From Nitrospira sp. KM1 (GTDB lineage Bacteria; Nitrospirota; Nitrospiria; Nitrospirales; Nitrospiraceae): a DNA stretch of 64,000 bases. Under the pieces are notes generated by a model. It was not told the origin of the DNA. It did not search any database and was given only the letters and a program-made list of their open reading frames with translations. Shown here piece after piece: positions 5,189 through 46,692 of this stretch. Position 1 is the first letter of the stretch. Each line of letters begins with the position of its first letter. Made by a program: the position numbers and the translations under genes. The DNA lies in assembly GCF_011405515.1 (NCBI RefSeq), contig NZ_AP022671.1, positions 496,001-560,000 of the forward strand, given 5' to 3'.

Positions 5189-5586
5189 CAAGCGCACCTC
5201 TACGTGTCCTGATAGGAAAAGTCGGGCTTGACGGCCATGACCGGGGAGTCAAACTGATTGCTCGGGCCTTGCGGGACGCCGGCATGGAAGTGATTTATAC
5301 CGGCCTTCATCAAACGCCGGAGCAGGTGGTCGGCACGGCGGTTCAGGAGGATGTGGATGCGATCGGTTTGAGCATTCTTTCCGGAGCGCACAACACATTG
5401 TTCCGGCGCGTGCTGGAGCTTCTGAAAGAGCAGGATGCCGGTGACATTGCTCTCTTCGGCGGCGGCATCATTCCCGATGAGGACATTGCCCATCTAAAAG
5501 CGGCCGGTGTCAAAGCTCTCTTTAAACCCGGCGCGGCCATGCATGAGATCGTGGAGTTTGTCAGCGGGCTCAAACGGCACGATTGA
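5179..5586 (+). CDS. Cobalamin-binding small subunit of the acyl-CoA mutase
   Basis: A 135-residue B12-binding domain. DGHDRG near residue 19 is the DxHxxG motif whose His coordinates cobalt in the base-off/His-on form; [13 protein letters not shown] and FGGGIIP are the other nucleotide-loop-binding segments. It matches the length and layout of separate small subunits such as IcmB and the archaeal-type mutase B subunit, and completes the large subunit encoded at 2705. Adenosylcobalamin provides the 5'-deoxyadenosyl radical for carbon-skeleton rearrangement. A GTPase of the MeaB family encoded at 8961 would load and protect the cofactor. Confidence 0.93.
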
Positions 5587-10694: not shown

Positions 10695-10762
10695 GTCTAT
10701 CGAGGTAGAACGGTCTTGCAGACTCGGTCACCGAACGCGTGACTCTCCGAGGAGAGGGTTCC

Positions 10763-12169
10763 ATGCTCGCAGCTCGCCTCGCTCGATATTGTCGATCGCT
10801 GCGCTACGAACGTTTGAGCGACGCCGTGATTCACGAAGTGAAACGGCGCGTGCTCGACAGTCTGGGTTGCGCGCTCGGGGCCTGGAGCGCTCCGCCTTGC
10901 CGCATTGCCCGCCATCTCGCGCAGCGGGTCACGATCACAACGGGTGCGACGCTGTGGGGCACCGCGCACAAAACGCTGCCGGATCTTGCGACCTTCGCCA
11001 ACGGCGCATTGGTTCGTTATCTGGATTTCAACGATACCTACCTCGCCAAGGAACCGGCTCATCCTTCCGATAACATTCCCGCTGTGCTTGCAATCGGCGA
11101 AGCCGTTCACGCGTCAGGCCGGCGCGTGATCGAGGCCATCGCGCTCGCGTACGAAATTCAGTGCCGGTTCTGCGACGCTGCGGCACTCCGGCCCCGTGGG
11201 TGGGATCATGTGACCTACGGTTCGTTCTCCTCCGCACTCGCTGCCGCCAAGATTTTGCAATTCTCGAACGCACAGGCGTTTCATGCCGTCAACCTTGCCG
11301 GCGTCGCGAATGTGGCCCTGCGGCAGACACGAGTCGGGGATTTGTCGATGTGGAAAGCCTGCGCGTTTTCGAATGCGGCCCGTAACGGCATATTTGCCGC
11401 CATGTTGGCCAAGCATGGCATGACGGGACCCTCACCGATTTTTGAAGGGGAGAAGGGCTTCATGAAACTCGTGTCCGGGCTGTTCGACCTGTCGCCCTTT
11501 GGAGGTGACGACGGCGAATCTACATCGTCCGGTTCAGACTCGTTCAGGATTCTGGATACCTATATCAAGCGCTACCCGGTGGAATATCACGCGCAAAGTG
11601 CAGTGGAAGCCGCATTGGAGCTTCGATCCGACTTGATCCAGGCTGAAGGCGACCAGGCTGTCGAGCACGTATCGGACATCGAGGTTGGAAGCTACGACGT
11701 CGCTATCGAAATCATCGGGCGCGATCCGGAGAAGTGGCAGCCGTCGACGAGAGAAACGGCGGATCATAGTTTTCCCTATTGCGTCGCCGTGGCGCTCTTG
11801 GACGGCCGTGTTTCGCTGCGGTCCTTCGGCCGTAAACGATTGCAGGACGGCACGCTGAGAGAATTGATGAAACGAGTCCGCGTCGTGCGACTGCCTGAAT
11901 TGGCGGATTGTTACCCCAAGACCATGCCGACACGTATCACTGTCAGGACGAGAGCTGGAAAAACCTATACGAGACAGAAAGATATTCCCTTGGGCCATCC
12001 GGCAAATCCCATGTCCGATAGGGAACTGGAAGCAAAGTTTCGGCGATTGGTGTCCGGGCGACTGGGGCGGGCCCGCATTGACAGGCTCATCCAACTCGTT
12101 TGGACGCTGGAGCGGCTCAAGGACATCGGGATGCTGATGCCGCTTTTGCGGATCAACGCTCGATCCTAG
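10763..12169 (+). CDS. prpD: MmgE/PrpD family protein, probable 2-methylcitrate dehydratase
   Basis: A 468-residue MmgE/PrpD protein: an N-terminal helical domain (residues 1-270, with RVLDSLGCALGAWS and ARYLDFNDTYLAKEPAHPSDN-like segments) and a C-terminal domain with the KRYPVEYHAQSAVEAAL block. PrpD removes water from 2-methylcitrate to give 2-methyl-cis-aconitate in the methylcitrate cycle. The next two genes are methylisocitrate lyase and methylcitrate synthase, which supports this role. ATG 10763 follows GGAGAGGG at good spacing. Confidence 0.9.
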   Translation: MLAARLARYCRSLRYERLSDAVIHEVKRRVLDSLGCALGAWSAPPCRIARHLAQRVTITTGATLWGTAHKTLPDLATFANGALVRYLDFNDTYLAKEPAHPSDNIPAVLAIGEAVHASGRRVIEAIALAYEIQCRFCDAAALRPRGWDHVTYGSFSSALAAAKILQFSNAQAFHAVNLAGVANVALRQTRVGDLSMWKACAFSNAARNGIFAAMLAKHGMTGPSPIFEGEKGFMKLVSGLFDLSPFGGDDGESTSSGSDSFRILDTYIKRYPVEYHAQSAVEAALELRSDLIQAEGDQAVEHVSDIEVGSYDVAIEIIGRDPEKWQPSTRETADHSFPYCVAVALLDGRVSLRSFGRKRLQDGTLRELMKRVRVVRLPELADCYPKTMPTRITVRTRAGKTYTRQKDIPLGHPANPMSDRELEAKFRRLVSGRLGRARIDRLIQLVWTLERLKDIGMLMPLLRINARS

Positions 12170-12197
12170 ATTTTTGTACTCTGAAAAGGCGCCAACC

Positions 12198-13112
12198 ATG
12201 GAGCAAAAAGGGCAGACGAAAGCTTCCAGATTGCGTGAATTGCTGGCCACTCGCACAGTCGGCATCCCGGGAGCGTTCAATGCCTTGATCGCGATGCAAA
12301 TCGAAAAAGCGGGCTATGAAACGGTCTACGTTTCGGGGGCGGCATTGTCCGCCTGCCGAGGAATCCCAGACACCGGCCTCCTCACACTGTCCGATGTTGC
12401 GGCCGAGGCAGGTCGCATCGCGCAAGCGGTGTCCATCCCGGCGATCGTCGATGCGGATACGGGATATGGCGGTCCTATGGCAGTTCGAGAAGCGGTAACA
12501 AGCTTTGAGAGGGCCGGTCTTGCCGGCATGCAGATTGAAGATCAGGAGATGGCCAAGAAATGCGGCCATCTGTCGGGAAAACGGCTGATACCGGTTGCCG
12601 AGATGGCCTCCAAGATCGAGGAGGCTGCGCGGGCCAAAATCGACCGCGATTTCATGATCATCGCCCGTACGGATGCTCGGGGTGTAGAAGGACTCGAGGC
12701 CACCATCACTCGAGCCGCAACTTACGCTGAAGCCGGAGCCGACGCCTTATTCCCCGAAGCCCTGGAATCGGCCGACGAATTTCAGACGTTCGCAAAGGAG
12801 GTGAAGAAAGCGGGGATAGCCTTGCCGCTGATCGCGAATATGACCGAATTCGGGAAAACACCGCTTCTGAGCTGCGGCGAATTTGAAACCATGGGCTATC
12901 GCGGCGTGCTCTTCCCCGTTACGACATTGCGAACCGCCCTGCGGGCCATCGGTGAACTGCTTGCGGAATTGAAGCTGTTCGGCACTCAACGGGACTGGCT
13001 TCATCACATGATGACACGACAAGAGCTGTACGATCTGCTTCGCTACACGGAATCCCTCGAACGACGGGAAGGGAGGATGGATGGGAATGGCAATGAGCAG
13101 GCAGGCGATTGA
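12198..13112 (+). CDS. prpB: 2-methylisocitrate lyase
   Basis: A 304-residue isocitrate lyase/PEP mutase superfamily protein. The metal-binding segment IVDADTGYGG is near residue 83 and the catalytic loop KKCGHLSGKRL near 124 carries the active-site Cys. YVSGAALSACRGIPDTGL and ARTDARGVEGLE are typical of PrpB rather than isocitrate lyase. It cleaves 2-methylisocitrate to pyruvate and succinate. Its 3' end overlaps the methylcitrate synthase start by 32 bases. Confidence 0.95.
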   Translation: MEQKGQTKASRLRELLATRTVGIPGAFNALIAMQIEKAGYETVYVSGAALSACRGIPDTGLLTLSDVAAEAGRIAQAVSIPAIVDADTGYGGPMAVREAVTSFERAGLAGMQIEDQEMAKKCGHLSGKRLIPVAEMASKIEEAARAKIDRDFMIIARTDARGVEGLEATITRAATYAEAGADALFPEALESADEFQTFAKEVKKAGIALPLIANMTEFGKTPLLSCGEFETMGYRGVLFPVTTLRTALRAIGELLAELKLFGTQRDWLHHMMTRQELYDLLRYTESLERREGRMDGNGNEQAGD

Positions 13113-14256
13113 AGCGCAGACGAGTCGATCCTACAGTCCGGGCCTAGAAGGAGTGATCGCCGGGGAATCGGCGCTCTGTCTTGTGGACGAGGGAGAAGCA
13201 GGCCTTCTCTATTGCGGCTATGCGGTCGACGACTTGGCTGAACAGGGCAATTTCGAGGAAGTCGCCCATCTTCTTCTGTTCGGCAACCTTCCGGCTCGCA
13301 AGGAGATGAAAGACTTCTCAGCTCAATTGGCAAGCCACGCCGTGCTGCCTCTTCCTGTCAACGCGTTTCTCGAAATGCTGCCCTCCGATTCTCATCCGAT
13401 GGACGTATTGAGGACGGGGGTGTCGCTGCTGGGGATGGTCGATCCTGAAACGCATGACAACTCGCGTGCGGCGAATGTCAGGAAATCCATTCGTTTGCTG
13501 GCGCAAGTCCCGTTGCTGACCATGGCCGCGTATCGTGTTGTGCATGCAAAACCTCTCCTGTCTCCACGTGCCGATTTGAGTTTTGCTGAAAACCTGCTCT
13601 ATTTGCTGACCGACCGGAACGGTGACGACCAGGCGCGGGCCATGGCTCGCGTCCTTGACGTATCGCTCACGCTGTACGCGGAGCATGAATTCAACGCGTC
13701 GACCTTTGCCGCCCGGGTCACAGCCTCAACGATGACGGATCTGCACTCAGCAGTGACTTCGGCCATCGGCACGTTAAAGGGGTCGCTTCATGGTGGAGCG
13801 AACGAGGCCGTGGCGAAGATGTTTTTCGAAATCGGCATCCCCGGCAGAGCCGAAACATGGATCCGCGATGCGCTGGCAAGGAAGCGCCGGATCATGGGCT
13901 TCGGCCACCGCGTGCTCAAGAAAGGCGATTCGCGGTCCGCCATTATTCAACGCCATGCCGAATCGTTGAGCCGAATCTGCGGCGACCATCGTTGGTACGA
14001 GATTGCGGTCATCGTCGAGGGTATCATGCGAGAGGAGAAAGGCTTACACCCCAACCTCGACTTTTACACGGCGGTGGCCTATCTGCTGATGGGCATTTCC
14101 CGCGAGCTCTACACTCCGGTATTTGTGTGTTCCCGTATCACCGGATGGTGCGCCCATGTCATCGAACAGCAGGACCATAACCGATTGATGCGGCCGCGCG
14201 CGCAATACACAGGACCGCGGAGGAGGGAGTATGTCGCCCTTGATCGCCGTGCCTGA
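13081..14256 (+). CDS. prpC: 2-methylcitrate synthase / citrate synthase family
   Basis: A 391-residue citrate synthase-fold protein of the short, non-regulated type. The catalytic His lies in LKGSLHGGANEAV near residue 240, a second in GFGHRVLKKGD near 280, and the Asp in HPNLDFYTAVAYLLMGI near 330. Such enzymes condense propionyl-CoA or acetyl-CoA with oxaloacetate; the prpDBC order points to propionyl-CoA. Three ATGs (13081, 13087, 13093) are possible; GGGAGG lies just before the first, so the exact start is uncertain by a few residues. It overlaps prpB upstream and the acyl-CoA ligase downstream by 26 bases. Confidence 0.92.
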   Translation: MGMAMSRQAIEAQTSRSYSPGLEGVIAGESALCLVDEGEAGLLYCGYAVDDLAEQGNFEEVAHLLLFGNLPARKEMKDFSAQLASHAVLPLPVNAFLEMLPSDSHPMDVLRTGVSLLGMVDPETHDNSRAANVRKSIRLLAQVPLLTMAAYRVVHAKPLLSPRADLSFAENLLYLLTDRNGDDQARAMARVLDVSLTLYAEHEFNASTFAARVTASTMTDLHSAVTSAIGTLKGSLHGGANEAVAKMFFEIGIPGRAETWIRDALARKRRIMGFGHRVLKKGDSRSAIIQRHAESLSRICGDHRWYEIAVIVEGIMREEKGLHPNLDFYTAVAYLLMGISRELYTPVFVCSRITGWCAHVIEQQDHNRLMRPRAQYTGPRRREYVALDRRA

Positions 14257-15940
14257 CCCTATCGCGCAAGCGCGTCATGTTCCAGGGCTCTCACCAGCAC
14301 TGCCCTGGAGCTCGTTTAGCGAGTTCTTCATCTCCCGCGTGCATGACCGTCTGTTGGTCAATCGGCCGTTCCTAACGTATTGCGACGACGACCGGACCGT
14401 ACGTTACACATACACCTATGGGGAATTCGGCACGGTTGTTGACGGAGCGGCTGCCTTCCTTCGCCACCAAGTCGGTCTTCGCCGGGGGGACCGTCTTGCG
14501 ACGATTCTCTTCAACCACGACATCACCGTCGTGCTGTATTTTGCCGCATGGGTTGCTGGAGTGGCGGTCGTCCCCATCAACATCGAAGAGCCTCCGGACA
14601 AAAAGCGATACATTTTGGAGCATTCGGAGGCAGCTGCGGTGTGCTGTTGGCACAGTTGCGTTGAAGAAGTACGAGCACATCAGCGTGACGTTACAACCTT
14701 GCGGCGGGTGGTCGCGGTAAATAACGACGGCTTCATTCGCAACGACGACGAGCTTGCGCACGGGTTGCCATGCGGCTCGACCTCGGGTCACTTGGCTCAC
14801 GCCGGGTCACTGGGCGACGAAGCGCTGGTTGTCTATACATCCGGCACGACAGGGGCGCCCAAAGGGGTGGTCCTGACAGTCGATAATTTGTTGACCGACG
14901 CCGATGCGATCGCTGACTGCCACGGGTTCGGCGCCGACGATCGTCTGATGTGCGTGCTTCCGATTCATCATGTCAACGGAACGGTGGTGACTGTACTGAC
15001 CCCGTTCTACTGTCAAGGCAGCACGGTCCTGAACCGCAGGTTCAAAAGCAAGGCTTTCTGGCGCAAGCTCCATGAAGAACGCGTGACGTATGTCAGCGTC
15101 GTCCCCACGTTGCTGGAATTTTTATTGGATGAAGACGAGGATCTGTCGTCATACCACTTGGACCATTTTGGCGGGTTCATCTGCGGCGCAGGCCCTTTGC
15201 TTAGAGACACGGCGGCCCGGTTCGAAGATCGATTCCGTTTTCCCATCCGTCACGGCTACGGCTTATCCGAAACCACCTGCTATTCTTGTTTTTTGCCGAA
15301 TGATCTTTCACCCGATGAGCACAGCCATTGGATCAGAGATTTCGAATTTCCCTCCATCGGTGTCCCATTGAAGCACAACGCGATGGCGATCCTGGACCGC
15401 GACGGCCGTCTCCTTCCAGAATTGACGCGAGGAGAAATTTGCATCCGCGGTGGAACCGTATGCGCCGGCTATTTCAAGAGAGCCGACGTCAACGAAGAGG
15501 CGTTCAAATGGGGTTGGTTTCGTTCCGGCGACGAAGGCTTTTATGTTCGAGACAACAGAGGCAGACCATTCTTCTTCATTTCCGGCCGTCTGAAGGAACT
15601 CATCATTCGAGGCGGTGTCAATATCTCTCCTCTCGAAATCGACGACGCATTGAAGAGTCACCCGCTCGTGCTGTTCGCGATGGCTGTTCCGTTCGACCAC
15701 CGATACTATGGGGAAGAAGTTGCCGCCTATGTCGTACCGCGGGATCATGGGCTCCCCCCCACGGAGGTGGATGTGCTCGCACACTGCCGCCGATTATTAC
15801 CATTTTCCAAGTCGCCCAAAGTCATCGTGTTTGGCAAGGATGTTCCCTACACTTCGACCGGTAAAGCCAAACGACTGGAGTTGAAAACCTGTCTAGCTTC
15901 CCGTTTGGCTGTTTATAGGAATCACCAATTCACGGAGTAG
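14231..15940 (+). CDS. Acyl-CoA synthetase (AMP-forming)
   Basis: A 569-residue ANL-superfamily ligase. The phosphate-binding loop YTSGTTGAPKGVV is near residue 200, the A5 motif GYGLSETTCYS near 340, the adenine/ribose Asp in FRSGDEGF near 435, and the C-terminal catalytic Lys in STGKAKRLEL near 545. It activates a carboxylic acid as acyl-AMP and then acyl-CoA. Its place right after prpDBC suggests it feeds a short-chain or branched-chain acid (propionate, isobutyrate or isovalerate) into the pathway; it is not of the longer PrpE/Acs type. GGAGGGAGT precedes the ATG. It closes the catabolic island. Confidence 0.88.
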   Translation: MSPLIAVPDPIAQARHVPGLSPALPWSSFSEFFISRVHDRLLVNRPFLTYCDDDRTVRYTYTYGEFGTVVDGAAAFLRHQVGLRRGDRLATILFNHDITVVLYFAAWVAGVAVVPINIEEPPDKKRYILEHSEAAAVCCWHSCVEEVRAHQRDVTTLRRVVAVNNDGFIRNDDELAHGLPCGSTSGHLAHAGSLGDEALVVYTSGTTGAPKGVVLTVDNLLTDADAIADCHGFGADDRLMCVLPIHHVNGTVVTVLTPFYCQGSTVLNRRFKSKAFWRKLHEERVTYVSVVPTLLEFLLDEDEDLSSYHLDHFGGFICGAGPLLRDTAARFEDRFRFPIRHGYGLSETTCYSCFLPNDLSPDEHSHWIRDFEFPSIGVPLKHNAMAILDRDGRLLPELTRGEICIRGGTVCAGYFKRADVNEEAFKWGWFRSGDEGFYVRDNRGRPFFFISGRLKELIIRGGVNISPLEIDDALKSHPLVLFAMAVPFDHRYYGEEVAAYVVPRDHGLPPTEVDVLAHCRRLLPFSKSPKVIVFGKDVPYTSTGKAKRLELKTCLASRLAVYRNHQFTE

Positions 15941-21310: not shown

Positions 21311-21565
21311 TCACCTACAACTCCGGATACTGTTTAGCAACTCCTTCAAAATGCCGAACGACTGCCTGGATTGTGTTAAACAATGTCGGCATAGACAGCT
21401 GAGACCAGTCGTGTCCTGTAGCATCTCGTTGCCGCCTCTTCCTTCACGAGACAGCTCGAAGCACCAACACGTGCTTTTGCCCTTGGCAAGGGCGCACTCA
21501 TTCCACTGACGACAGAGCGGGCAGCGGGATGGATCGAGGTCTGAATCAGCCAAAGCGTTCCTCAC
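21311..21565 (-). CDS. Small cysteine-rich CWC-type protein
   Basis: 84 residues with nine Cys. The pattern (DPSRCPLCRQWNECALAKG, then TCWCF, then CLCRHCL) matches the cysteine-rich CWC family, small predicted metal-binding proteins of unknown role. It starts at GTG 21565, inside the 3' end of metE, so translation is coupled and it is the last gene of the nrdAB-metE transcript. Function unknown; zinc or iron-sulfur binding is possible. Confidence 0.75.
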   Translation of the reverse strand: MRNALADSDLDPSRCPLCRQWNECALAKGKSTCWCFELSREGRGGNEMLQDTTGLSCLCRHCLTQSRQSFGILKELLNSIRSCR

Positions 21566-23858
21566 CGAACTGCCGGCGAGCCACTCGCGCGGCCCCGACC
21601 ATATTAATCAGCGCTGTCTGAACTTCCGGCCAACCTCGTGTCTTGAGTCCGCAATCCGGATTCACCCACAACCGTGTGGGAGGCAGAATCTTTCCCGCAT
21701 GGACCAGGAGATTGGCCATTTCTTCTTTCGTCGGAACTCGCGGCGAATGAATGTCGTAGACACCCGGACCGATCGCGTTCGGATACTGATAGCGGATAAA
21801 GTCGCCGAGCAGTTCCATTCTTGAGCGCGAGGTTTCAATCGAAATGACGTCGGCATCCATCTCGGCGATTGCCTCCAAGATGTCTCCGAATTCTGAGTAG
21901 CACATGTGAGTATGGATCTGGGTATCGTCTCGCACCCCGCTCGTGGCCAACCTGAAGGCGTCGACGGCCCAGCGCAAATAGCTCCTCCACTCGGCACGCC
22001 GTAACGGCAGTCCTTCTCGCACCGCAGGTTCGTCTACCTGGATCATGGCGAGACCGGCCTGCTCCAAATCCGCCACTTCGTCTCGGAGTGCCAGAGCGAT
22101 CTGCCGGCAGACGTCCTTCCTGGGCACATCGTCGCGGACGAAGGACCACTGTAAGATCGTCACCGGGCCAGTCAACATTCCCTTCATCGGTCGCCGGGTC
22201 AACGATTGAGCATACGTCGACCATTCAACTGTCATCGAACTCGACCGCGACACATCGCCGAAAATGACTGGAGGTTTCACACAGCGCGACCCATAGCTCT
22301 GTACCCAACCTTGCTCCGTGAAGGCGACCCCCTTCAGGTGTTCTCCGAAGTATTCGACCATATCGGTGCGTTCGAACTCTCCATGCACCAGCACATCCAA
22401 GTTGATCGCCTCCTGCTTCTCGATGCAAACCCGTGTCTCCTTTTTCAGAAAGGCCTTATACTCCTCAGCCGTCATTCGGCCGGATCGCCAGGCAGCCCGC
22501 GCTGAACGAACATCGCCTGTCTGAGGAAATGACCCGATCGTCGTGGTAGGAAATAGCGGAAGTTTGAAGCGCGCGTGTTGTACACGATGGCGATCCGCAA
22601 AGGGCGATGCCCGGTGAAGGTCGGCCTCCGTTACTCCCTGTATCCGTTTTTGTACTTCTGAATCATGAATGCGTGAAGATTGAGCTTTCGCCGCGCGCAT
22701 CGCTCTTGAAGCCAATACATGCGGGGCTATTGGATCGTCGAATCGTCCGCCATCCGCTAATTGACAAACTTCGGTGAGTTTCTGCTCCGCGAAGGCCAGC
22801 CAACTCATGAGGTCCGCATCGATTTTCTGTTCAGACTGAACATCGACGGGTACATGAATCAGCGAGCAGGAAGGTGCGACCCACACCCGATGGGCGCCAA
22901 GTGACAGCACCGCTCGATTGACCATTGCTCGTGCAACATCAAGATTCGTTCGCCAAATGTTTCGCCCGTCCACAACACCCAAAGACAGACACATCGAAGA
23001 AGGCAGTACCTCCAACAACGCGCTTAATTGCTCTGGATGCCGCACAAGGTCTATGTGCAAGGCGTCACAGCCCGACTGAATCGCAACCGAAAGATTGTCC
23101 TCCAGCGCTCCAAAGTACGTGGCGAGAAGGAGGCGAGGTCTTGATGGGCACTCTGCGAGTTGTGCGTATGCCAGACGATAGGCAGCCTTGGCGCGGTCAT
23201 CCAGGTCAAGGACAAGACAGGGTTCATCGATCTGCAACCATGTGATCTCTCGTTCCGCAAGTTCGTGGAGAATCCGTTTATACACGGGCAGGAGATCGCC
23301 GAGCAGATCCAGTGGTATGGCATCCTGCGTCTTGCCGTCTTGCAACTTTGACAAGAGCAGAAAAGTCACTGGGCCGATGATAACCGGGCGAGACTCGATG
23401 CCCAGTCTTCGGGCTTCCTCGATCTCCGCGTACAATTTCGCTGCATTGAGCGAAAACTTCTGCGTCCGTTCGAGTTCCGGCACAATGAAGTGATAGTTGG
23501 TATCGAACCATTTAGTCATTTCCAGAGCCGATAGGTCGAGGCCTTTACTATCTTGGTAGCCGCGCGCCATGGCGAAATACCGCGTCAGTGGATCGGCGAT
23601 GGCTTGATAGCGTTGCGGCACGGCGCCCACCATGACGGCAGCGTCCAGCATGTGGTCGTAAAGCGAGAAGTCCCCGACGGGAATGTGATCGATTCCGGCG
23701 CTTTTCATGGCCGACCAATGCCGGCGTCGAAGGTCGTAGCCCGCCTGAAGCAGGTCTGCGGCCGTGCGTTTCCCCGACCAGTATGACTCGAGCGCATACT
23801 TCAATTCCCGGGCGGCACCAATTCGAGGGTAGCCCAGGCAGGTGGCAAGAATAGACAC
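21546..23858 (-). CDS. metE: Cobalamin-independent methionine synthase
   Basis: 770 residues from GTG 23858, which has AAAGGAA upstream; the family N-terminus LGYPRIGAARELK follows at once (E. coli MetE is 753). An ATG at 23927 would give an unneeded 23-residue extension. The C-terminal catalytic barrel has the zinc ligands HMC (near residue 665) and the Cys in NPDCGLKTRGW (near 745), and HGEFERTDMVEYFGE binds homocysteine and folate. It transfers a methyl group from 5-methyl-tetrahydrofolate to homocysteine without B12. It lies 55 bases after nrdB, downstream of a cobalamin riboswitch, so B12 should turn it down. Confidence 0.97.
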   Translation of the reverse strand: MSILATCLGYPRIGAARELKYALESYWSGKRTAADLLQAGYDLRRRHWSAMKSAGIDHIPVGDFSLYDHMLDAAVMVGAVPQRYQAIADPLTRYFAMARGYQDSKGLDLSALEMTKWFDTNYHFIVPELERTQKFSLNAAKLYAEIEEARRLGIESRPVIIGPVTFLLLSKLQDGKTQDAIPLDLLGDLLPVYKRILHELAEREITWLQIDEPCLVLDLDDRAKAAYRLAYAQLAECPSRPRLLLATYFGALEDNLSVAIQSGCDALHIDLVRHPEQLSALLEVLPSSMCLSLGVVDGRNIWRTNLDVARAMVNRAVLSLGAHRVWVAPSCSLIHVPVDVQSEQKIDADLMSWLAFAEQKLTEVCQLADGGRFDDPIAPHVLASRAMRAAKAQSSRIHDSEVQKRIQGVTEADLHRASPFADRHRVQHARFKLPLFPTTTIGSFPQTGDVRSARAAWRSGRMTAEEYKAFLKKETRVCIEKQEAINLDVLVHGEFERTDMVEYFGEHLKGVAFTEQGWVQSYGSRCVKPPVIFGDVSRSSSMTVEWSTYAQSLTRRPMKGMLTGPVTILQWSFVRDDVPRKDVCRQIALALRDEVADLEQAGLAMIQVDEPAVREGLPLRRAEWRSYLRWAVDAFRLATSGVRDDTQIHTHMCYSEFGDILEAIAEMDADVISIETSRSRMELLGDFIRYQYPNAIGPGVYDIHSPRVPTKEEMANLLVHAGKILPPTRLWVNPDCGLKTRGWPEVQTALINMVGAARVARRQFGEERFG

Positions 23859-23913
23859 GGAGTGATTCCTTTCTTTTGATCGCTCAGTGGCGATCCGTAT
23901 TGTTTGTTCGCTC

Positions 23914-24936
23914 TCAAAAGGCCGCATCGAGGGTGACGGCTCCCGTCGCGCCTACCTGATAGGCGGACACGCGGCGTTCGAAAAAATTCGCGATCTCTTG
24001 AACGTCCTGCAATTCCATGAACGTAAAGGGATTTCTTGTACCGTAGTGCTTTGGCAATTCGAGCATCACCAGACGCTGATCCGCCACGTATTCCAAATAG
24101 CGCTTAACGTCCGCCGGTGACAGACCCGCGATGCCTCCCCCAAGCAGATCTTCAGCGAATCCGATTTCACAAGCGACCGCCTCTTCGATCATCGTGATGA
24201 CATTCCGCGCGAGCGACGCGTCAAACAGCTCAGGCTCTTCCCGCCGGATCTGTTGGACAACCTCAAAGGCGAAGGCCATGTGAGCGCTTTCGTCACGAAA
24301 CACCCAATTGGTTCCTCCCGCCAATCCGTGCAGAAGGCCGCGAGACCGCAGAAAGTACACGTACGCAAACGCGGCAAAGAAGAAGAGCCCTTCGATGCAG
24401 GCCGCAAAGCCGATGAGGTTCTGCAGAAACAGCCGGCGTTCGTCTCGGGTATGCAAGACGCTCAGATGCTGAAGGGAGTTCATCCATGTGAAACAAAACT
24501 CTGCCTTGCGGCGTATCGACGGAATGGTTTCGATGGCGGCGAATGCATCGTGCCGTTCAGCGGCGTCCGGCACGTAGGTATCCAGCAGGGTCAAATAAAA
24601 CTGAACATGGAGGGCTTCTTCGTACAGCTGCCGCGACAAGTACATCCGCGCTTCCGGCGCATTGATGTGTCGATACAGATTCAGGACCAGGTTGTTGGCG
24701 ACAATAGAATCCCCTGTAGCGAAGAAGGCAACCAGGCGCTGGACGAGATGACGTTCGGATGAATTCATCTTGCTTCGCAAGTCGTCTACATCTGTTGAAA
24801 AGTCGACTTCTTCGACTGTCCAAGTATTGCGGATGGCGGCCCGATACATGTCAAAAAACACTGGATAGGTCATCGGCCTCAGCGTCAGACACATACCAGG
24901 ATCGAGGAGTCGTGCCGGGCGTTCGACATATTTCAT
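23914..24936 (-). CDS. nrdB: Class Ia ribonucleotide reductase beta subunit
   Basis: 340 residues. Di-iron ligands are visible: Asp in ATGDSIVANN, EALH near residue 108 (Glu and His), Glu in the IEGLFFFAAFAY helix and RDESAHMAF near 210 (Glu and His). Seven residues after the first Glu of EALH comes Tyr, the position of E. coli Tyr122, so it should form a tyrosyl radical (class Ia/Ib), not the Phe type (Ic). It provides the radical for NrdA and needs oxygen, not B12. The ATG overlaps the nrdA stop (ATGA). Confidence 0.96.
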   Translation of the reverse strand: MKYVERPARLLDPGMCLTLRPMTYPVFFDMYRAAIRNTWTVEEVDFSTDVDDLRSKMNSSERHLVQRLVAFFATGDSIVANNLVLNLYRHINAPEARMYLSRQLYEEALHVQFYLTLLDTYVPDAAERHDAFAAIETIPSIRRKAEFCFTWMNSLQHLSVLHTRDERRLFLQNLIGFAACIEGLFFFAAFAYVYFLRSRGLLHGLAGGTNWVFRDESAHMAFAFEVVQQIRREEPELFDASLARNVITMIEEAVACEIGFAEDLLGGGIAGLSPADVKRYLEYVADQRLVMLELPKHYGTRNPFTFMELQDVQEIANFFERRVSAYQVGATGAVTLDAAF

Positions 24937-27425
24937 TGGCAGGCCTCGCAGGATCCTGGATTCTCCAGGGAACAGGCGATGTCTCGTGCGATATCATGCT
25001 TCGACGGTGAGGTGGTGTTCGGCGTGGACGCGGAGGCCATTCTGCCACCCTGCAAGTCAGCCGATGCGGCATCGATGGTGGCTTTTGCGATCCGTGTGGC
25101 AGGACGCGAACGAAGGTAGTAAGTCGTTTTCAGACCTTTCTGCCAGGCATAAAAGTACATGCTGGACAGTTGCCCGATATTCGGGTTTTCAATGAACAGA
25201 TTCAGCGACTGGCTCTGATCGATGAATGCCCCGCGATCCGCAGCCATATCGATTAATGATCGCATCGGGATTTCCCAGACGGTGCGATACAGCAGACGCA
25301 AGTCATCGGGAAGATCGTCGAATGATTGAACCGATCCTTCGGCCATCTTCAATCGGTTACGCATGACTTCGGTCCAAAAGCCCCTCAGTTTCAGATCGGA
25401 GACCAGATACCGGTTGACCTGCAGGAAATCACCGGACAAGGTTTCCCGCTTAAATAGGTTGGACACTTGCGGCTCGATGCACTCATAGCAACCGGCAATA
25501 GATGCAATCGTCGCGGTCGGTGCGACCGCTATAAGAAGAGAATGCCGCAAACCGTGTGTGCGGATACGAGCTCGCAAGGCTTCCCACCGTTCCGGCTCGG
25601 AAGGGGAGACACTCCAAGCATCGAACTGGAGCTGACCATCTGCGGCACGCGTTTCGTCGAAGGCAGGATGACGACCCTTGGTCATCGCCAGATCCATCGA
25701 GGTCGACAGGGCATGAAAATAGATGTCCTCGGCGATGCGACAAGACAATCGCCTTGCTTCTGCGCTGTCGAACGGCAGCCGCAACTGAAAGAACACGTCC
25801 TGCAGGCCCATCACGCCGAGGCCGACCGGCCGCCAGCGAAAATTTGAAGCCTGGGCCGCAGGAATCGGATAGAAATTCAGATCGATGACGCGATCGAGTT
25901 GATGGACCGCCGTCCGAACGGTCTGCGCCAGCTTGGTGAAGTCGAACGATACCGTCCCGCCAGGCTCGGTGAAGAGGTGCCGAGACAGATTGATGGACCC
26001 GAGGTTGCAGACCGCGGTTTCGTTTTGGGAGGTGACTTCGAGAATTTCCGTACAGAGGTTCGACAAATGGACCGTGCGCCCGGATCTCGCGGTCTGATTA
26101 CAGGTCCGATTGGATGTGTCCTTGAACGTCATCCATCCGTTTCCAGTCTGTGCAAGGGTGCGCATCATCCGCGCGTACAATGTGCGCGCCTTCACTGCCT
26201 TGACGGCCTGTCCATCGCGTTCAGCCTGCTCGTAGGCCTGCACGAAAGCGTCTCCGTACAAATCGGGGAGTTCAGGGACGTCTTTCGGATCGAACAGGCT
26301 CCAATCTGCATCCTGTTCCACGCGTTCCATGAACAGATCCGGAATCCAGTTTGCGAGATTCAGATTGTGAGTGCGAGCAGCCTCGTCACCGGTGTTATCG
26401 CGCAGCTCGAGAAATTCTTCGACGTCGGCGTGCCATGGTTCAAGATAGACGCAGCAAGCTCCCTTGCGTTTTCCTCCTTGATTGACCGCCGCCACGGAGG
26501 CGTCGAGCGTCTTCAGCCAGGGAATGATTCCGCTGGAATTGCCGTTCGTGCTCTCGATGAGCGAACCGCGGGAGCGGACGCGATGATAGGCCAGGCCGAT
26601 ACCGCCGGAAAATTTCGACAGCATGGCCACGTCTGTGTATCGCTGGTAAATCTGTTCCAGAGCATCTTCCGGCGAATCGAGAAGGAAACAGCTGGACAAT
26701 TGCTCATGCCGCGTTCCGGCGTTGAAGAGGGTGGGAGAGCTCGGCAGATATTCCAGGACGGACATCAGCCGGTACAATTCCAGGGCATCGGAGACCGTTT
26801 CAGACAGTGCGCAGGCAATACGCAAGAAAAAGTGTTGGGCAGTCTCGATGACTTGCCGGCTGATCGGATGTTTGAGCAGATAGCGGTCGTAGATGGTGCG
26901 CAGGCCGAAGTATTCGAACTCCCGATCCCGCGCCGGCGTGATCGCATCATTCAACTTACGGGCGTTTTGAGAAACGAACGCCGCGAGGCGACCATTGATG
27001 AGTCCAAGGCGTTGCCCTTCTGCAATGGATTGCGTAAAGGCGTGGATCTCCTGATTGCGGACTTCCTTATCGATGTAGGTCGAGAGCAGCCGTGCGGCCA
27101 ATTTGGAATATTGCGGCTCTTCTACAATGAGCCCTGCGGCCGTTTGAATCGAGAGACGGTCGAGTTCCCTGGTCGTCGCGCCATCGTAGAGTCCGCTGAT
27201 CGTCTTGGTAGCAATTCGTAGCGGATCGATATCCGTCAAACCGGTGCAACAGCGTTCGACAGCGCGAACGATCTTCATTACATCGACGGCCTCCATCGAA
27301 CCGTTGCGTTTGCGCACACGCATCGTTGAAGGAGACGAGGATGTTCCGCTGTCATTGGCCCGGTGCGCTGAGGCTGCAGGAGAAACGGATTGGGGATCTA
27401 CCTGCTGGGCGGGATCGTTGGCCAT
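24933..27425 (-). CDS. nrdA: Class Ia ribonucleoside-diphosphate reductase alpha subunit
   Basis: 830 residues from ATG 27425 with GAGGAGG upstream. An ATP-cone begins near residue 36 (RKRNGSMEAVDVMKIVRAV), so activity is probably dATP-regulated. The catalytic barrel has SSCFLL (first redox Cys) and NLCTEI (radical Cys, Asn, Glu), with the partner Cys in TAVCNLGSINL, and the C-terminal SCEACQ is the CxxC tail that takes electrons from thioredoxin. It reduces ribonucleoside diphosphates with NrdB. The 250-base leader holds a cobalamin riboswitch, which suggests the genome also has a B12-dependent class II reductase. Confidence 0.97.
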   Translation of the reverse strand: MANDPAQQVDPQSVSPAASAHRANDSGTSSSPSTMRVRKRNGSMEAVDVMKIVRAVERCCTGLTDIDPLRIATKTISGLYDGATTRELDRLSIQTAAGLIVEEPQYSKLAARLLSTYIDKEVRNQEIHAFTQSIAEGQRLGLINGRLAAFVSQNARKLNDAITPARDREFEYFGLRTIYDRYLLKHPISRQVIETAQHFFLRIACALSETVSDALELYRLMSVLEYLPSSPTLFNAGTRHEQLSSCFLLDSPEDALEQIYQRYTDVAMLSKFSGGIGLAYHRVRSRGSLIESTNGNSSGIIPWLKTLDASVAAVNQGGKRKGACCVYLEPWHADVEEFLELRDNTGDEAARTHNLNLANWIPDLFMERVEQDADWSLFDPKDVPELPDLYGDAFVQAYEQAERDGQAVKAVKARTLYARMMRTLAQTGNGWMTFKDTSNRTCNQTARSGRTVHLSNLCTEILEVTSQNETAVCNLGSINLSRHLFTEPGGTVSFDFTKLAQTVRTAVHQLDRVIDLNFYPIPAAQASNFRWRPVGLGVMGLQDVFFQLRLPFDSAEARRLSCRIAEDIYFHALSTSMDLAMTKGRHPAFDETRAADGQLQFDAWSVSPSEPERWEALRARIRTHGLRHSLLIAVAPTATIASIAGCYECIEPQVSNLFKRETLSGDFLQVNRYLVSDLKLRGFWTEVMRNRLKMAEGSVQSFDDLPDDLRLLYRTVWEIPMRSLIDMAADRGAFIDQSQSLNLFIENPNIGQLSSMYFYAWQKGLKTTYYLRSRPATRIAKATIDAASADLQGGRMASASTPNTTSPSKHDIARDIACSLENPGSCEACQ

Positions 27426-27690
27426 AATGCCTCCTCGTTCGGTGGTTGCGCAAAGGATGTACCCTTGCGGGTTGACCGTGAGGAGCCGACATCAGCTAAC
27501 ACTGCCCTTTGAGACGACGCCAGGGCGTGTAAAGCCGACCTTCACCCCCACGGGTGACGGGAAGCTATGAAAGGGGATGGTCGTGAACCGAGGACGGAGG
27601 AAGGAAAGAGATCCGTACCAGCTCAGACCCATGGCCCTCCCACGAGGCTTCCAGGTCAAACCGACATCGGTTGTCTCTCCAATGTCAGAT

Positions 27691-27872
27691 GCTGGCAGGT
27701 CTTCGGGCTTGCGAGCGTGTCGGCGTATGCCGCGTTCCTACTCTCCACCGCTTCCCAACTCTGACGAGTCAGTGCGAAGGTGGAGTCGTTCTCGCTTACC
27801 GCTGCGGGGCAGCCCCGGATTCACACCGGGTTCCCTCTTCGTCTCCGAGTATTTCGGAGAACCAGCACGGGG
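27691..27872 (-). ncRNA. Cobalamin riboswitch upstream of nrdAB-metE
   Basis: On the minus strand the segment reads through the AGGGAA / CCGGTGTGAATCCGGGGCTG core and CCCCGCAGCGGTAAGCG, then a variable arm, and ends with the B12 box GCAAGCCCGAAGACCTGCCAGC (27691-27712). These are the hallmarks of the adenosylcobalamin riboswitch class. It lies 266 bases before the nrdA ATG. Control of B12-independent isozymes implies repression when B12 is plentiful. The 90 bases after the aptamer are also conserved in the second copy at 29166 and probably form the expression platform; I could not define a clear terminator. Confidence 0.93.
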
Positions 27873-27878
27873 CGGGAG

Positions 27879-27905
27879 TCTATAGTCGATTCCGAGCGAT
27901 GTCAA
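27879..27905 (-). promoter_or_regulatory. Promoter of the nrdAB-metE leader
   Basis: On the minus strand TTGACA (27900-27905) and TATAGA (27879-27884) with a short 15-base spacer, just before the riboswitch. The same TTGAC / TATAGACTCC arrangement precedes the second riboswitch. Confidence 0.6.
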
Positions 27906-27936: not shown

Positions 27937-28218
27937 TTACGTTGGAATGTCGCGTACACCATCATGAGCTTGGTTTTGCGAGTGGTAGGAAAGTTTGACG
28001 ACGTCACCGTCCTTTACGATCGAGTGTTCCGATCCGATCCGTCTGTTCACAATAATGACGACTTCACGATCGATCACGAATGGGAGGAGCGCCCCCAGTC
28101 GAGGGGGATGATCTTCGATCAATTTTTTCACGGTGGTGGGCAGTGATGTCTCAATGTCCAGTTCATGCTCATCCAGTGCGGTTCGTAACGTCAGTCCAAA
28201 TATTAAGACTTTAATCAT
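27937..28218 (-). CDS. Beta-grasp (MoaD/ThiS-like) small protein without the C-terminal GlyGly
   Basis: 93 residues with the feel of the ubiquitin-like MoaD/ThiS fold: a first strand MIKVLIFG, a helix near TVKKLIEDHP, and the closing VNRRIGSEHSIVKDGDVVKLS, as in ThiS/MoaD. It does not end in Gly-Gly, which sulfur carriers need; instead a 12-residue tail follows. So it is unlikely to be a thiocarboxylate carrier. It lies 45 bases after the 2OG-Fe(II) oxygenase gene and shares its cobalamin riboswitch. A partner or regulator of that oxygenase is the simplest guess. Confidence 0.7.
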   Translation of the reverse strand: MIKVLIFGLTLRTALDEHELDIETSLPTTVKKLIEDHPPRLGALLPFVIDREVVIIVNRRIGSEHSIVKDGDVVKLSYHSQNQAHDGVRDIPT

Positions 28219-28263
28219 GAGGCCTCGGATGCTTTCGGTAATGGTTGCACTGGCGCGATTCTC

Positions 28264-29016
28264 TCATGAGCCTTTGTGAATAATCGGATCGAGATTGAAG
28301 GCGATGCTGATACGAGGAGCATTCCCCGTATACCGCGTGACTGCGTGAAACAGCCAGCCGGGAAACAGCAGGCATTGGCCGGCTGAGGGGGTAAACGAGA
28401 CACTCGCTCCTGCGTCATGGAGCTCTGGCACGCTGTATCGGAGATATGGGGCTAGCATGCGCGGCAGACATCCTCGCGGATCATAGAGTTGCAATTCTCC
28501 GCCATTTGCTCCCTGTGAGACGTCGCCCACGTCGATGTAATACACGCCGGACCAAAAACTGCCGGGATGTGGGTGGCAAGCATTGCTGCCTCCCTTCCGC
28601 TGTACATTGGCCCACAATTCGGCTACTCGCCACTCGGGTTGCCGCGCGTGGAGACTCGATCGTTCTGACAACTCTGTCATGCACGTGGCGACTTGGGTGA
28701 CCTGACCAAGGAGAAGCTCAAGCGGATCGGCAGCCCATTCCAGCATGGAGAGATCATGAGGAGACGACCATCCGACAACCTCGTCGTCTGAATAACTCGG
28801 TTGAGAGGTTTCTCGTTCGAGGATAAGACGAGAAAGCTCGGCGTTGATGCGACGGTGGTCCACAACGGTAAACACCAGCAGCGGCGTGGCAAAGAGTGGT
28901 CTGATGGAGATTTCGTTTTCAGGCGTCACATTGCCGACCGATCCCGTGGTCCATCGAGGTTCCCGGACGAGGAGAGGATCAGCCGAAATGTGTGTGGATT
29001 TCGGACCGACCTGCAT
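28264..29016 (-). CDS. 2-oxoglutarate/Fe(II)-dependent oxygenase, B12-riboswitch controlled
   Basis: 250 residues of the putative 2OG-Fe(II) oxygenase group (2OG-FeII_Oxy_5 type). The C-terminal jelly roll has CHPHPGSFWSGVYYID (first His), an Asp in QLYDPRG, FPGWLFHAV (second His near residue 224) and RISIAFN (the Arg that binds 2-oxoglutarate). The start is uncertain: ATG 29016 gives 250 residues, while an internal GTG before TPENEISIRPL would also suit the family. The substrate is not known. A cobalamin riboswitch lies 150 bases upstream, so the enzyme is expected to be made when B12 is short; that is unusual for this family. Confidence 0.85.
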   Translation of the reverse strand: MQVGPKSTHISADPLLVREPRWTTGSVGNVTPENEISIRPLFATPLLVFTVVDHRRINAELSRLILERETSQPSYSDDEVVGWSSPHDLSMLEWAADPLELLLGQVTQVATCMTELSERSSLHARQPEWRVAELWANVQRKGGSNACHPHPGSFWSGVYYIDVGDVSQGANGGELQLYDPRGCLPRMLAPYLRYSVPELHDAGASVSFTPSAGQCLLFPGWLFHAVTRYTGNAPRISIAFNLDPIIHKGS

Positions 29017-29165
29017 CCCCGCGGATAACGAGAATCCTTGTGAAGGGGATGTGGTCGTGAACTTAGAACGGAAGAGAAGAGACGAGTCCGTACCAGCTCA
29101 GACCCACGGCCCTCCCACGAGGCATCAAGGTCTAACAGGCACCGGTTGTCTCTCCGGAGCCGGAT

Positions 29166-29348
29166 GCTGGCAGGTCTTCGGGCTTGCGAGCGTGTCGGCG
29201 TATGCCGCGTTCCTACTCTCCACCGCTTCCCAACTCTGACGAGTCAGTGCGAAGGTGGAGTCGTTCTCGCTTACCGCTGCGGGGCAGCCCCGGATTTGCA
29301 CCGGGTTCCCTCTTTATTCTCTGAACGATCTCAGAGACCAGCAACGGG
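29166..29348 (-). ncRNA. Cobalamin riboswitch upstream of the 2OG oxygenase
   Basis: The aptamer core (AGGGAACCCGGTGCAAATCC, GGGGCTGCCCCGCAGCGG) and B12 box (29166-29187) are almost base-for-base the same as the copy at 27691 across about 150 bases, including the variable arm. The similarity continues about 90 bases past the aptamer. The two are clearly a recent duplication, giving two separately started transcripts under the same B12 control. Confidence 0.93.
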
Positions 29349-29354
29349 GCGGAG

Positions 29355-29382
29355 TCTATATTTCTGAACCAATTCAAGTCAA
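29355..29382 (-). promoter_or_regulatory. Promoter of the oxygenase leader
   Basis: Minus strand TTGACT (29377-29382) and TATAGA (29355-29360), spacer 16 bases, followed by ACTCC as in the nrdA leader promoter. A transcription start near 29348 is expected. Confidence 0.6.
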
Positions 29383-29525: not shown

Positions 29526-29692
29526 CTCACTCGTCGTCCGCTCATAGACCAGCGCGATGCGCTGGAATCTGGCAGAGAAGATGGAGATTGGTACTGCCGG
29601 CGCTACTTGATGGCGATGCTGGATCGTGCATGCGCGATGCTCCTGCGCAGGGGGGGTGCTACCACGAAAATAGAGAGAAGGACTTCATGAGC
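29526..29692 (+). pseudogene. Fragment of a mobile-element gene
   Basis: An open frame without a good start codon that reads like a protein C-terminus (DGDWYCRRYLMAMLDRACAM near the middle). Its TGA overlaps the ATG of the broken HTH gene at 29689. I do not recognise the family. Position and decay suggest part of an old integrated element. Confidence 0.35.
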
Positions 29693-29873
29693 AAGCTTTT
29701 GACGATGAACGAGGCAGCAGGGTATTTAGGCGTGTCGAAACTCACGCGCATGGTTGGGTACCAGCTTATAAAGTGAGCTTCATCAAGGTCGGTCGATTCG
29801 TGAAATTTCGACATGAGCACTTAGGCAAGTGGGAATTCCTTATGATGCTAGAGGAGTACGGGCAGTGCGGCTA
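29689..29873 (+). pseudogene. Broken excisionase-type helix-turn-helix gene
   Basis: ATG 29689 gives LLTMNEAAGYLGVSKLT, the first half of an HTH_17/excisionase domain. After a stop at 29776 another frame continues with SFIKVGRFVKFRHEHLGKW, the second half. So a frameshift splits one gene of about 60 residues. A diverged, also broken relative is at 20594, nine kilobases away. Confidence 0.65.
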
Positions 29874-29909
29874 AAACCTTAAGCGAGAGTCTATCACCGC
29901 TAAGAAGGT

Positions 29910-30253
29910 CTGACACAGTTCAGGTTCTTCCCCCGCCCGCTGTCAAGCTGACCTTGCAGAGAATTGCAAAAGTGCGTAGCCTGTCGACTAGGTACGTCTT
30001 CACCGGCGAGAGGAAACCCATTTATCACATGATAAGATCATTGCAAGGTAGCTCTGGTGAAAGCCAGCATTCCTGATTTCGGATTCCACGATTTGAGGCA
30101 TTGCGCTTCCACCAACCTAAGAAGGGTAGGGGTGGACACGGCACCGGCAATGCACAAGTGGGGCACAAGTCTGAGAAAATGTGGAAACGGTACAATGCGA
30201 TTGAAAAGCATGACTTGACTCCTAATACCCAAAAGTTCGATAGATACCCTTTA
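29910..30253 (+). pseudogene. Tyrosine recombinase (phage integrase) C-terminal remnant
   Basis: Pieces in three frames: LQRIAKVRSLSTRYVFTGER from about 29950, then IPDFGFHDLRHCASTNLRR from 30062 (the HxLRH catalytic block), then GHKSEKMWKRYNAIEKHDL with the catalytic Tyr near 30190-30220. Together they are the C-terminal half of a tyrosine recombinase, disrupted by at least two frameshifts. It lies about 70 bases before tRNA-Arg, a usual integration target, so an element once inserted here and has decayed. Confidence 0.75.
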
Positions 30254-30325: not shown

Positions 30326-30402
<77 letters not shown>

Positions 30403-44472: not shown

Positions 44473-46614
44473 TTAAACCAACAACAACCCTTCTGACCGG
44501 AGCCTCCTCCACAAGGACCTCCCGGCAAACGCTTGAAACTCGCGCTGGGTTCCCGGAAATGATGACCCGACATCTTGCAATCTGGGGTAACGTGATTTTT
44601 TTCCTCTGCGCGGTGTCGAGCAATCGATCAATTCTTTGATCCATTCCCTGTGCGGTGCCGACAACTTGGCTCCCGCGATGATCTTGGCGGCGTGCAGGTT
44701 CGCACCGCCGATCCACACGATTCTGCGCTCAGCAGTCACATCGTCAATTATGCGACGATGGCGCAAGATCGTTTGGGTCCACCTCGATGAGACACGCGGT
44801 CGAGGGACGGCATGGTCGAACCAGCTGCGTACATCCATGCTGAGCCCACGTCTTTCCAGAAAGTTGAGCATCGACCGGCGCAGACCTTCGCCCACCCAGG
44901 GCGGACAGTGGCTGGTCAGATCCTCATGAGTCAAATCGTTCTCTGCAAACCCTTTGAAGTCCGGTCCCACAATTCGGAGGCCATGAGATTTGGCGTCCAG
45001 TCCGATGGGGCTATGGGCGGTCGCCGTGAAGCGATGCCAGAAGGCTGATTGCATGACTCCTGCAGAAAATAATTGACGCACACGTTCCAGAGAATCGACG
45101 GTCTCCTGCAATGTTTCAGAGGGAAAGCCATACATCAGATACGCGTGAACCATAACTCCCGCTTCACGGAAGGCCGATGCGACAAGGGCGGTCTGATCCA
45201 CTGAAATTCCTTTTTTCATCTTCTCGAGCAACCGGTCCGATGCGGCTTCAAGGCCGGCCGTTACGGCAATGCACCCGGCCGCGGCAAGCAACCGGCACAG
45301 ATCCGGCGAGAATGTTTGTTCGAACCTGATGTTTCCCCACCAACGAACCTTTATGCGCCGTTCCAGCAATCCTATTGCCATGGCCTTGAGCGCCGCCGGA
45401 GGGGCGGCTTCATCCACGAAGTGAAAGCCCCGATGGCCAGTTTCTGCGATCAGTGTTTGAACCTGGTTGATGAGCGCTTCAGTAGGAGCCGGCTCATATC
45501 GCCCAATGTAATCCAAGCCTACATCGCAAAACGTGCATTGCTTCCAATAACACCCGTGAGCAACGGTGAGCTTGTTCCAATGACCTTCGGACCAAAGCCG
45601 GTGCATGGGATTTGTACTGTCCAAAATCGACATGTATCGATCAAGGGTCAAGCCCCTGTAGGTCGGCGTCCCAGTGTCACCCAGCGCAAAGTTGAGGGAG
45701 GCTGGATCATTCACAAACCGCACCTTCCCGCGGCTTCGGTAGAACGTCCGGCACAACATATCTCGAGTCCGTCGTCCGGACAGATATTCAATGAGCGACA
45801 GAAGCGGCCGTTCTCCGCCGTCTAAGGTGACATAGTCTATATAGTTAAAAATTCTCGGATCACTGATCCGTCGCAATTCCGTATTGACATATCCCCCGCC
45901 CAGCACAATAGGAATGTCGGGGCACCGCTGCTTGATGGCCTGTGCGACGCGAAACGCGCCGTATACATTGCCGGGAAACGGAACCGATAGTCCTATCAAC
46001 GTAGGCCGCACCCGGTCGATGTAGGCCCAGAGCGATTCCAGCATGAAGACATCGGTCAGCGCAGGCGTCTCGCCGAGAGCGGAGAGGAGTGAGTCGAACG
46101 ATGACGCTGATCGTGCCAGATGTTCGGCGTATCGGCTGAGGCCGAAATGAGGAGCAACGGTGGCTTGAATGAGATCCGTGAGATCTTCGATGAACAAGGT
46201 GGCCCAGCGCATGGCACGATCAATCAGAGGTGCAGAGCGGGATAAATCTCTTTGACTTCTAAATCGAGGCCCGTGCGGCAGAACACCCCTCTTCAGCAAG
46301 GTCGCCCCTGAGTCCGGATCGGGCTTTTGCAAAAATGTCACTGCCTGGTCGATGTTGGCAATGTAGCGGTCGCGGGCCTTCATCATCACCCCGGCCTCAA
46401 ACGGCAATTCGATACGGCGTTTGTCCAACTCGCCGAACACGGCCTGCAATCCCTCGCGGCTGAACAACCGAAGCACCATGTCGAGACCAAGGTCTCTTTG
46501 TTCACACGCTATGCCTTGAGCCTGAAGAAATCCCGTGAGATAGGCTGTGGAGGGATAGGGGGTGTTGAGCTGTGTCAGCGGAGGAATGATCAGCAGTACT
46601 TTGGGAAGGTTCAT
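44473..46614 (-). CDS. B12-binding-domain radical SAM protein
   Basis: 713 residues from ATG 46614. An N-terminal B12-binding-like Rossmann region (LLIIPPLTQLNTPYPS through IGLSVPFPG and VLGGGYVNTEL near 245) has no DxHxxG motif. The radical SAM barrel begins near 360 with GCYWKQCTFCD; the spacing CX4CX2C is wider than the usual CX3CX2C but occurs in this group. GNIRFEQTF and YLMYGFPSET follow, and a C-terminal region with no known domain. Such enzymes methylate or rearrange unreactive carbons; the substrate here is unknown. Confidence 0.85.
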   Translation of the reverse strand: MNLPKVLLIIPPLTQLNTPYPSTAYLTGFLQAQGIACEQRDLGLDMVLRLFSREGLQAVFGELDKRRIELPFEAGVMMKARDRYIANIDQAVTFLQKPDPDSGATLLKRGVLPHGPRFRSQRDLSRSAPLIDRAMRWATLFIEDLTDLIQATVAPHFGLSRYAEHLARSASSFDSLLSALGETPALTDVFMLESLWAYIDRVRPTLIGLSVPFPGNVYGAFRVAQAIKQRCPDIPIVLGGGYVNTELRRISDPRIFNYIDYVTLDGGERPLLSLIEYLSGRRTRDMLCRTFYRSRGKVRFVNDPASLNFALGDTGTPTYRGLTLDRYMSILDSTNPMHRLWSEGHWNKLTVAHGCYWKQCTFCDVGLDYIGRYEPAPTEALINQVQTLIAETGHRGFHFVDEAAPPAALKAMAIGLLERRIKVRWWGNIRFEQTFSPDLCRLLAAAGCIAVTAGLEAASDRLLEKMKKGISVDQTALVASAFREAGVMVHAYLMYGFPSETLQETVDSLERVRQLFSAGVMQSAFWHRFTATAHSPIGLDAKSHGLRIVGPDFKGFAENDLTHEDLTSHCPPWVGEGLRRSMLNFLERRGLSMDVRSWFDHAVPRPRVSSRWTQTILRHRRIIDDVTAERRIVWIGGANLHAAKIIAGAKLSAPHREWIKELIDCSTPRRGKKSRYPRLQDVGSSFPGTQREFQAFAGRSLWRRLRSEGLLLV

Positions 46615-46692
46615 CTCCCGGACATAACACAATGACGGACGTCGTGGCTACTCAACGCAGCGTGCGTTACGCCCCCGGAGAACCCGCACGCT

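Follow-up and report, generated by a model that had tools for sequence, protein, structure and literature searches.

A putatively cobalamin riboswitch-controlled oxygenase beside B12-independent isozymes in Nitrospira: a possible oxygen-dependent stand-in

In the 4.5 Mb genome of Nitrospira sp. KM1, a gene pair encoding an oxygenase of the TIGR02466/PF13759 family and a small ThiS-like protein lies behind one cobalamin riboswitch, and the genes of two B12-independent isozymes, the class Ia ribonucleotide reductase NrdAB and the methionine synthase MetE, lie behind a second. Both riboswitches, found in the 64,000-nucleotide stretch analyzed here (positions 496,001 to 560,000 of contig NZ_AP022671.1; hereafter the window), are intact, and cobalamin control of the genes downstream is predicted. 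By this prediction, the oxygenase and ThiS-like genes are an independent riboswitch-controlled unit beside bona fide B12-independent isozymes. The oxygenase is probably part of a low-B12 response, because it is placed under riboswitch control together with B12-independent enzymes and has relatives in like cassettes in eight other genomes. The reading that we favor, tentatively and at somewhat less than an even chance, is that the oxygenase, with the ThiS-like protein, acts as a cobalamin-repressed, O2-using stand-in within a B12-independence program of some Nitrospiraceae. Its basis at the level of sequence is an intact riboswitch with its promoter and a conserved platform, the grouping of nine copies in a clade of their own with linkage to nrdAB and/or metE, and purifying selection.

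Nitrospira depend on B12, and the cassette shows an escape route for some lineages. That a third gene travels with the two textbook replacements suggests that these nitrifiers, which are ecologically central, have one more requirement for B12, and an uncharacterized oxygenase family, along with an equally uncharacterized radical-SAM pair that is widespread in the Nitrospiraceae, becomes the subject of a testable hypothesis.

The cassette is read on the minus strand in the order riboswitch, oxygenase, ThiS-like gene, riboswitch, nrdAB, metE (Table 1). The first-pass annotation of this DNA had placed the oxygenase and its small partner under a B12 riboswitch and had read the sister transcript as encoding NrdAB and MetE, and both statements are borne out: each aptamer exceeds the RF00174 gathering score of 31.5 bits by a wide margin, the first standing with promoter and platform ahead of the oxygenase and ThiS-like genes and the second ahead of nrdA-nrdB-metE.

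Table 1. Features of the riboswitch-linked cassette (coordinates are those of the window)
Feature	Position	Strand	Remarks
Promoter 1, TTGACT-18-TAGACT	29353..29382	(-)	Immediately 5' of riboswitch 1; leader alignment
Cobalamin riboswitch aptamer 1	29152..29357	(-)	RF00174, 117.0 bits
Expression platform, riboswitch 1	28990..29151	(-)	Conserved, structured; also found in nrdA and metE leaders of other Nitrospira
TIGR02466/PF13759 oxygenase CDS	28264..28929	(-)	Likely GTG start at 28929
ThiS-like (beta-grasp) protein, 93 aa, without Gly-Gly tail	27937..28218	(-)	Paralogue of a family-wide gene
Promoter 2, TTGACA-17-TAGACT	27877..27905	(-)	Immediately 5' of riboswitch 2
Cobalamin riboswitch aptamer 2	27677..27881	(-)	RF00174, 124.5 bits
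Expression platform, riboswitch 2	27510..27676	(-)	Conserved
nrdA, class Ia ribonucleotide reductase alpha, B12-independent, O2-dependent	24933..27425	(-)	Profile matches
nrdB, class Ia ribonucleotide reductase beta	23914..24936	(-)	Profile matches
metE, cobalamin-independent methionine synthase	21546..23927	(-)	Profile matches

Both aptamers occupy a 5'-UTR position, each with a promoter and a regulatory platform of its own. Only two sigma-70-like promoter matches occur between 27.4 and 29.6 kb, at the 5' ends of the aptamers, and the 45-nt gap between the oxygenase and ThiS-like genes contains no promoter match. The platform that follows the aptamer, about 110 nt in length, is conserved in the nrdA, metE, and oxygenase leaders across Nitrospira genomes and is predicted to adopt a common structure of two long hairpins, with compensatory changes at some pairs and a possible alternative pairing. 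An Rfam scan at gathering thresholds matched the aptamers alone and gave no match for the platform. A leader peptide within the platform was ruled out, the reading frame being lost in other leaders.

The placement of B12-independent isozymes behind cobalamin riboswitches, by which they are repressed, is well-described (PMC2211319, PMC545781), and the literature thus agrees with the rule of riboswitch-controlled B12-independent replacements from which the first-pass annotation had argued. With riboswitch-controlled metE, nrdAB, and nrdDG, the window oxygenase shares the riboswitch class, the cassette, and the expected logic of being off in the presence of B12 and on in its absence; it differs from them in that most copies of its clade sit beside, rather than behind, a riboswitch. 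If the oxygenase is such a stand-in, scarcity of adenosyl- or methylcobalamin would cause the leader to release its expression. With the help of O2 and probably of 2-oxoglutarate and Fe(II), the oxygenase would then take over a step that is otherwise B12-dependent, as NrdAB does for NrdJ and MetE for MetH.

The identification of the protein as an oxygenase of the 2-oxoglutarate/Fe(II) type, made in the earlier reading, is consistent with its scores of 89.7 bits against TIGR02466 (curated cut-off 62.5) and 82.6 bits against PF13759 (2OG-FeII_Oxy_5; cut-off 27) and with a model of its fold. The start codon then assumed is less secure. The called ATG at 29016 falls within the part of the leader that is conserved after the aptamer. 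Homologues start around residue 30 of the called reading frame, some 29 residues on, at an in-frame GTG; the start is therefore probably GTG 28929. An AlphaFold model built on a 61-sequence alignment (mean pLDDT 87.6, compared with only 49 when 12 close sequences were used) is a double-stranded beta-helix, for which the nearest solved folds are the uncharacterized structures 3bvc and 2rg4, followed by WelO5 and prolyl hydroxylases. By score, by fold, and by an invariant HxH...H...R motif the protein resembles the family and these two structures. His-148, His-150, and His-224 are invariant in 61 of 61 family sequences and Arg-235 is present in 60 of them, whereas the canonical 2OG-Fe(II) arrangement is an HxD/E...H triad plus Arg. 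The Asp of a DPR motif (residue 179), which all 12 sequences of the Nitrospirota alignment share and which varies among phage members, could serve as a carboxylate ligand. The status of the protein as an oxygenase thus derives from family scores and fold and not from assay. Within the open-licence literature we found neither a characterized function for any TIGR02466 member nor a report of such an oxygenase behind a cobalamin riboswitch. Unlike the window oxygenase, those homologues on plasmids and phages that were inspected show no link to B12 in their surroundings, and their neighborhoods were uninformative on function; a viral scan using the Nitrospira oxygenase alignment returned no relatives. 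Comparison of the window copy with that of a second genome, G149, gave a dN/dS of 0.15, indicative of purifying selection.

Purifying selection is also evident for the ThiS-like partner (dN/dS of 0.07 for the same pair of genomes). The first-pass description of this partner as a beta-grasp protein is reasonable in view of its PF02597-type similarity, which at 21.5 bits is just below the cut-off of 22.5 (a paralogue elsewhere in the genome reaches 31.2), but the C-terminal Gly-Gly is absent. In beta-grasp-type similarity it is like the sulfur carriers MoaD, ThiS, and HcyS; in place of the Gly-Gly of MoaD and ThiS, the window protein has a conserved DGxRDIP tail, reading DGVRDIP(T/V) in the window and G149 copies. 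The paralogue (63%) is a family-wide gene (C1:57251 in the same genome) that, in the majority of inspected regions and genomes, adjoins an FAD/Fe-S oxidase, and in the ThiS-like tree the window and G149 copies form one clade (99/91), sister to the family-wide copy of the window genome. On this evidence the ThiS-like protein would serve as an accessory factor or as a scaffold, and less as a sulfur carrier of the classical kind.

In a survey of 175 genomes of the family, the oxygenase was found in 40. A tree of 40 copies places those of the window, of G149, and of seven genomes of a lineage designated g2 in one clade (99/96), and all nine have a cobalamin riboswitch together with metE and/or nrdAB beside them; near the other 31 copies, in the flanks available, there is no cobalamin riboswitch. 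Only two of the nine oxygenases of the clade, those of the window and G149, are behind a riboswitch, the seven g2 copies lying just upstream of one on an ordinary, constitutive-looking promoter. A hidden riboswitch ahead of the g2 genes was ruled out: permissive cmscan at three loci and nhmmer detected none 5' of them. The order in g2 is oxygenase, riboswitch, nrdA, with nrdB and metE next on every contig long enough to include them; G261 has the oxygenase at one contig end and nrdA-nrdB-metE at the end of another contig. G149 has a riboswitch followed by metE, a further gene, the oxygenase, and the ThiS-like gene, and a separate riboswitch-nrdAB. The further gene (L030 9086-9553) encodes a 156-residue protein with a weak CV_2116 domain. 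The linkage to B12 control is therefore not peculiar to the window, since the G149 pair lies in a riboswitch-metE operon. Of the earlier proposal that the oxygenase replaces a B12-dependent enzyme, the association stands, with all nine members of the clade in the cassette; the replacement itself is not established, and seven of the nine are not behind a riboswitch. Few genomes of the family have metE (6 of 80), and four of these six carry the cassette oxygenase. The window genome has MetH alongside MetE. Among the B12-binding matches of G289 there is no MetH.

An alternative that is unlikely, though far from negligible, is that the oxygenase and ThiS-like protein aid B12-independent enzymes or low-B12 physiology without replacing any B12 enzyme; they might, for instance, mature or protect NrdB, provide homocysteine to MetE, or adjust dNTP or methyl metabolism. 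The oxygenase of this clade always adjoins nrdAB and/or metE, and in G149 it is inside the metE operon, apart from nrdAB; early methionine biosynthesis in Nitrospira is, moreover, unexplained (PMC8115632). Against such a role, riboswitch-nrdAB cassettes exist without any oxygenase in G289 (L131), where metE is intact, in G281 (L134), where it is a remnant, and in G206 (L132), where it is broken, from which it follows that neither NrdAB nor MetE needs the oxygenase. Constitutive paralogues are also found in many genomes that have no metE.

A replacement role for the oxygenase, as in the reading we favor, is plausible, and if it holds, the strongest individual candidate for what is replaced would perhaps be a B12-binding radical-SAM pair, encoded in the window genome at C1:887953-889851 and C1:885940-887790. 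Its nearest named models, PhpK-type and RiPP methyltransferases, score far under cut-off. The locus also harbors a constitutive oxygenase paralogue, which has both the pair and a third radical-SAM gene as neighbors in the window genome and in G155, G127, G193, G330, and G305; in G331, on a short contig, the paralogue is beside the third gene. Across the 175 genomes surveyed, 139 encode the pair (104 of the 114 good ones). As for the earlier suggestion that a B12 enzyme might be missing where the oxygenase occurs, or alternate with it, the pair is absent from seven of the nine cassette genomes, all belonging to the g2 lineage (one of them, G358, is in nine contigs and 88% complete), and from 29 of the remaining 166 genomes of the family. 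The seven, however, represent one lineage only, and four genomes of 89-99% completeness (G018, G267, G279, and G285) have neither pair nor oxygenase. Where the pair is kept, in the window genome and G149, the cassette oxygenase lies behind a riboswitch, and where it is lost, in the seven g2 genomes, the oxygenase is on a seemingly ordinary promoter. A simple reading would be that the riboswitch is retained as long as both enzymes are present and dispensed with once the oxygenase alone remains.

If so, the oxygenase and the radical-SAM pair would be a third B12-dependent/-independent isofunctional set besides NrdJ/NrdAB and MetH/MetE. AcsF and BchE are the classical example of an O2-dependent enzyme paired with a B12-radical-SAM enzyme. 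Two unrelated cyclases are described in PMC4944227. The idea would be the same here, both enzymes carrying out one and the same step, with the difference that alternation is seen in one lineage only. The seven g2 genomes that lack the pair are small (2.4-2.9 Mb) and have lost the third radical-SAM gene too, and another B12-binding radical-SAM family is missing from the two g2 genomes tested; because a single small-genome lineage lacks these other genes as well, absence of the pair may represent general gene loss. In favor of the pair as candidate, a comparison of B12-binding families showed that G216 and G261 still have MetH along with two further B12-binding enzymes of radical-SAM type. Strict alternation of oxygenase and pair across the family was ruled out, most genomes with the oxygenase having both and a few genomes having neither, as was retention of the third gene after loss of the pair, the pattern of a replaced step in a pathway that is kept. 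The constitutive oxygenase coexists with the pair in g3 genomes and in the window genome. Given the single lineage, the co-lost genes, the genomes without both, and the coexisting constitutive copies, it is doubtful that the oxygenase is specifically an O2-dependent, B12-free replacement for this pair, with the constitutive paralogue an aerobic back-up beside it.

The cassette is, as judged from its gene content and remnants, fluid, and a further possibility is that it is mobile and decaying and that rearrangement brought the pair of genes behind a riboswitch, in which case B12 control would have little meaning. The two leaders in the window are near-identical duplicates; another riboswitch of the same genome, at C1:3053710, is at the place syntenic to the riboswitch-nrdAB of G149, with nrdAB gone; there are remnants of metE in G149 as well as G281 and a broken copy in G206; a decayed integrase and a decayed excisionase beside a tRNA gene flank the window cassette; and seven of the nine cassette oxygenases are not riboswitch-controlled. 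That the pair is such a passenger nevertheless seems improbable, as this sits poorly with linkage across nine genomes, with purifying selection and a complete leader and platform, and with the occurrence of the oxygenase and ThiS-like genes together in two different riboswitch arrangements. Least probable is a role for the pair in cobalamin salvage, remodeling, or lower-ligand supply, induced at low B12 like cob or btu genes: most cobalamin riboswitches in the family regions examined do precede cob or btuB genes, and the G149 pair ends directly 5' of riboswitch-cobB-cobQ, but the other eight cassette copies adjoin nrdAB-metE and not cob genes, and oxygenase paralogues are found beside radical-SAM genes or in unrelated contexts.

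Several observations on the surroundings of the cassette may be added. Relics of a frameshifted excisionase-like HTH protein and a tyrosine recombinase (window 29642-30230) adjoin a tRNA gene (30326-30399), which suggests an old genomic island as the site of the cassette; within the window, the att site had no second copy. On the plus strand between 0.5 and 16 kb, inspection by eye picked out methylmalonyl-CoA mutase-like, B12-dependent parts, with a B12-binding subunit at 5179-5583, and genes resembling a B12-independent methylcitrate cycle (10739-15937); there is no riboswitch in this region. On the minus strand, 44476-46632 encodes a 719-residue B12-binding protein of radical-SAM type, the family of which is missing from the B12-binding matches of G216 and G261 and is represented in the window genome, G110, G149, G281, and G289.

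Elsewhere, a fatty-acid desaturase has been described behind a cobalamin riboswitch, and an unknown B12-dependent counterpart was proposed for it (PMC2211319). That enzyme is, like the window oxygenase, O2-dependent, although it belongs to another enzyme family and another organism. In the window genome, the cobalamin riboswitch at C1:3053710-3053914 (L040 9712-9914) lies about 0.9 kb before genes for a fatty-acid desaturase and a CFA synthase, and at the syntenic place in G149 the desaturase and CFA synthase genes come after nrdAB.
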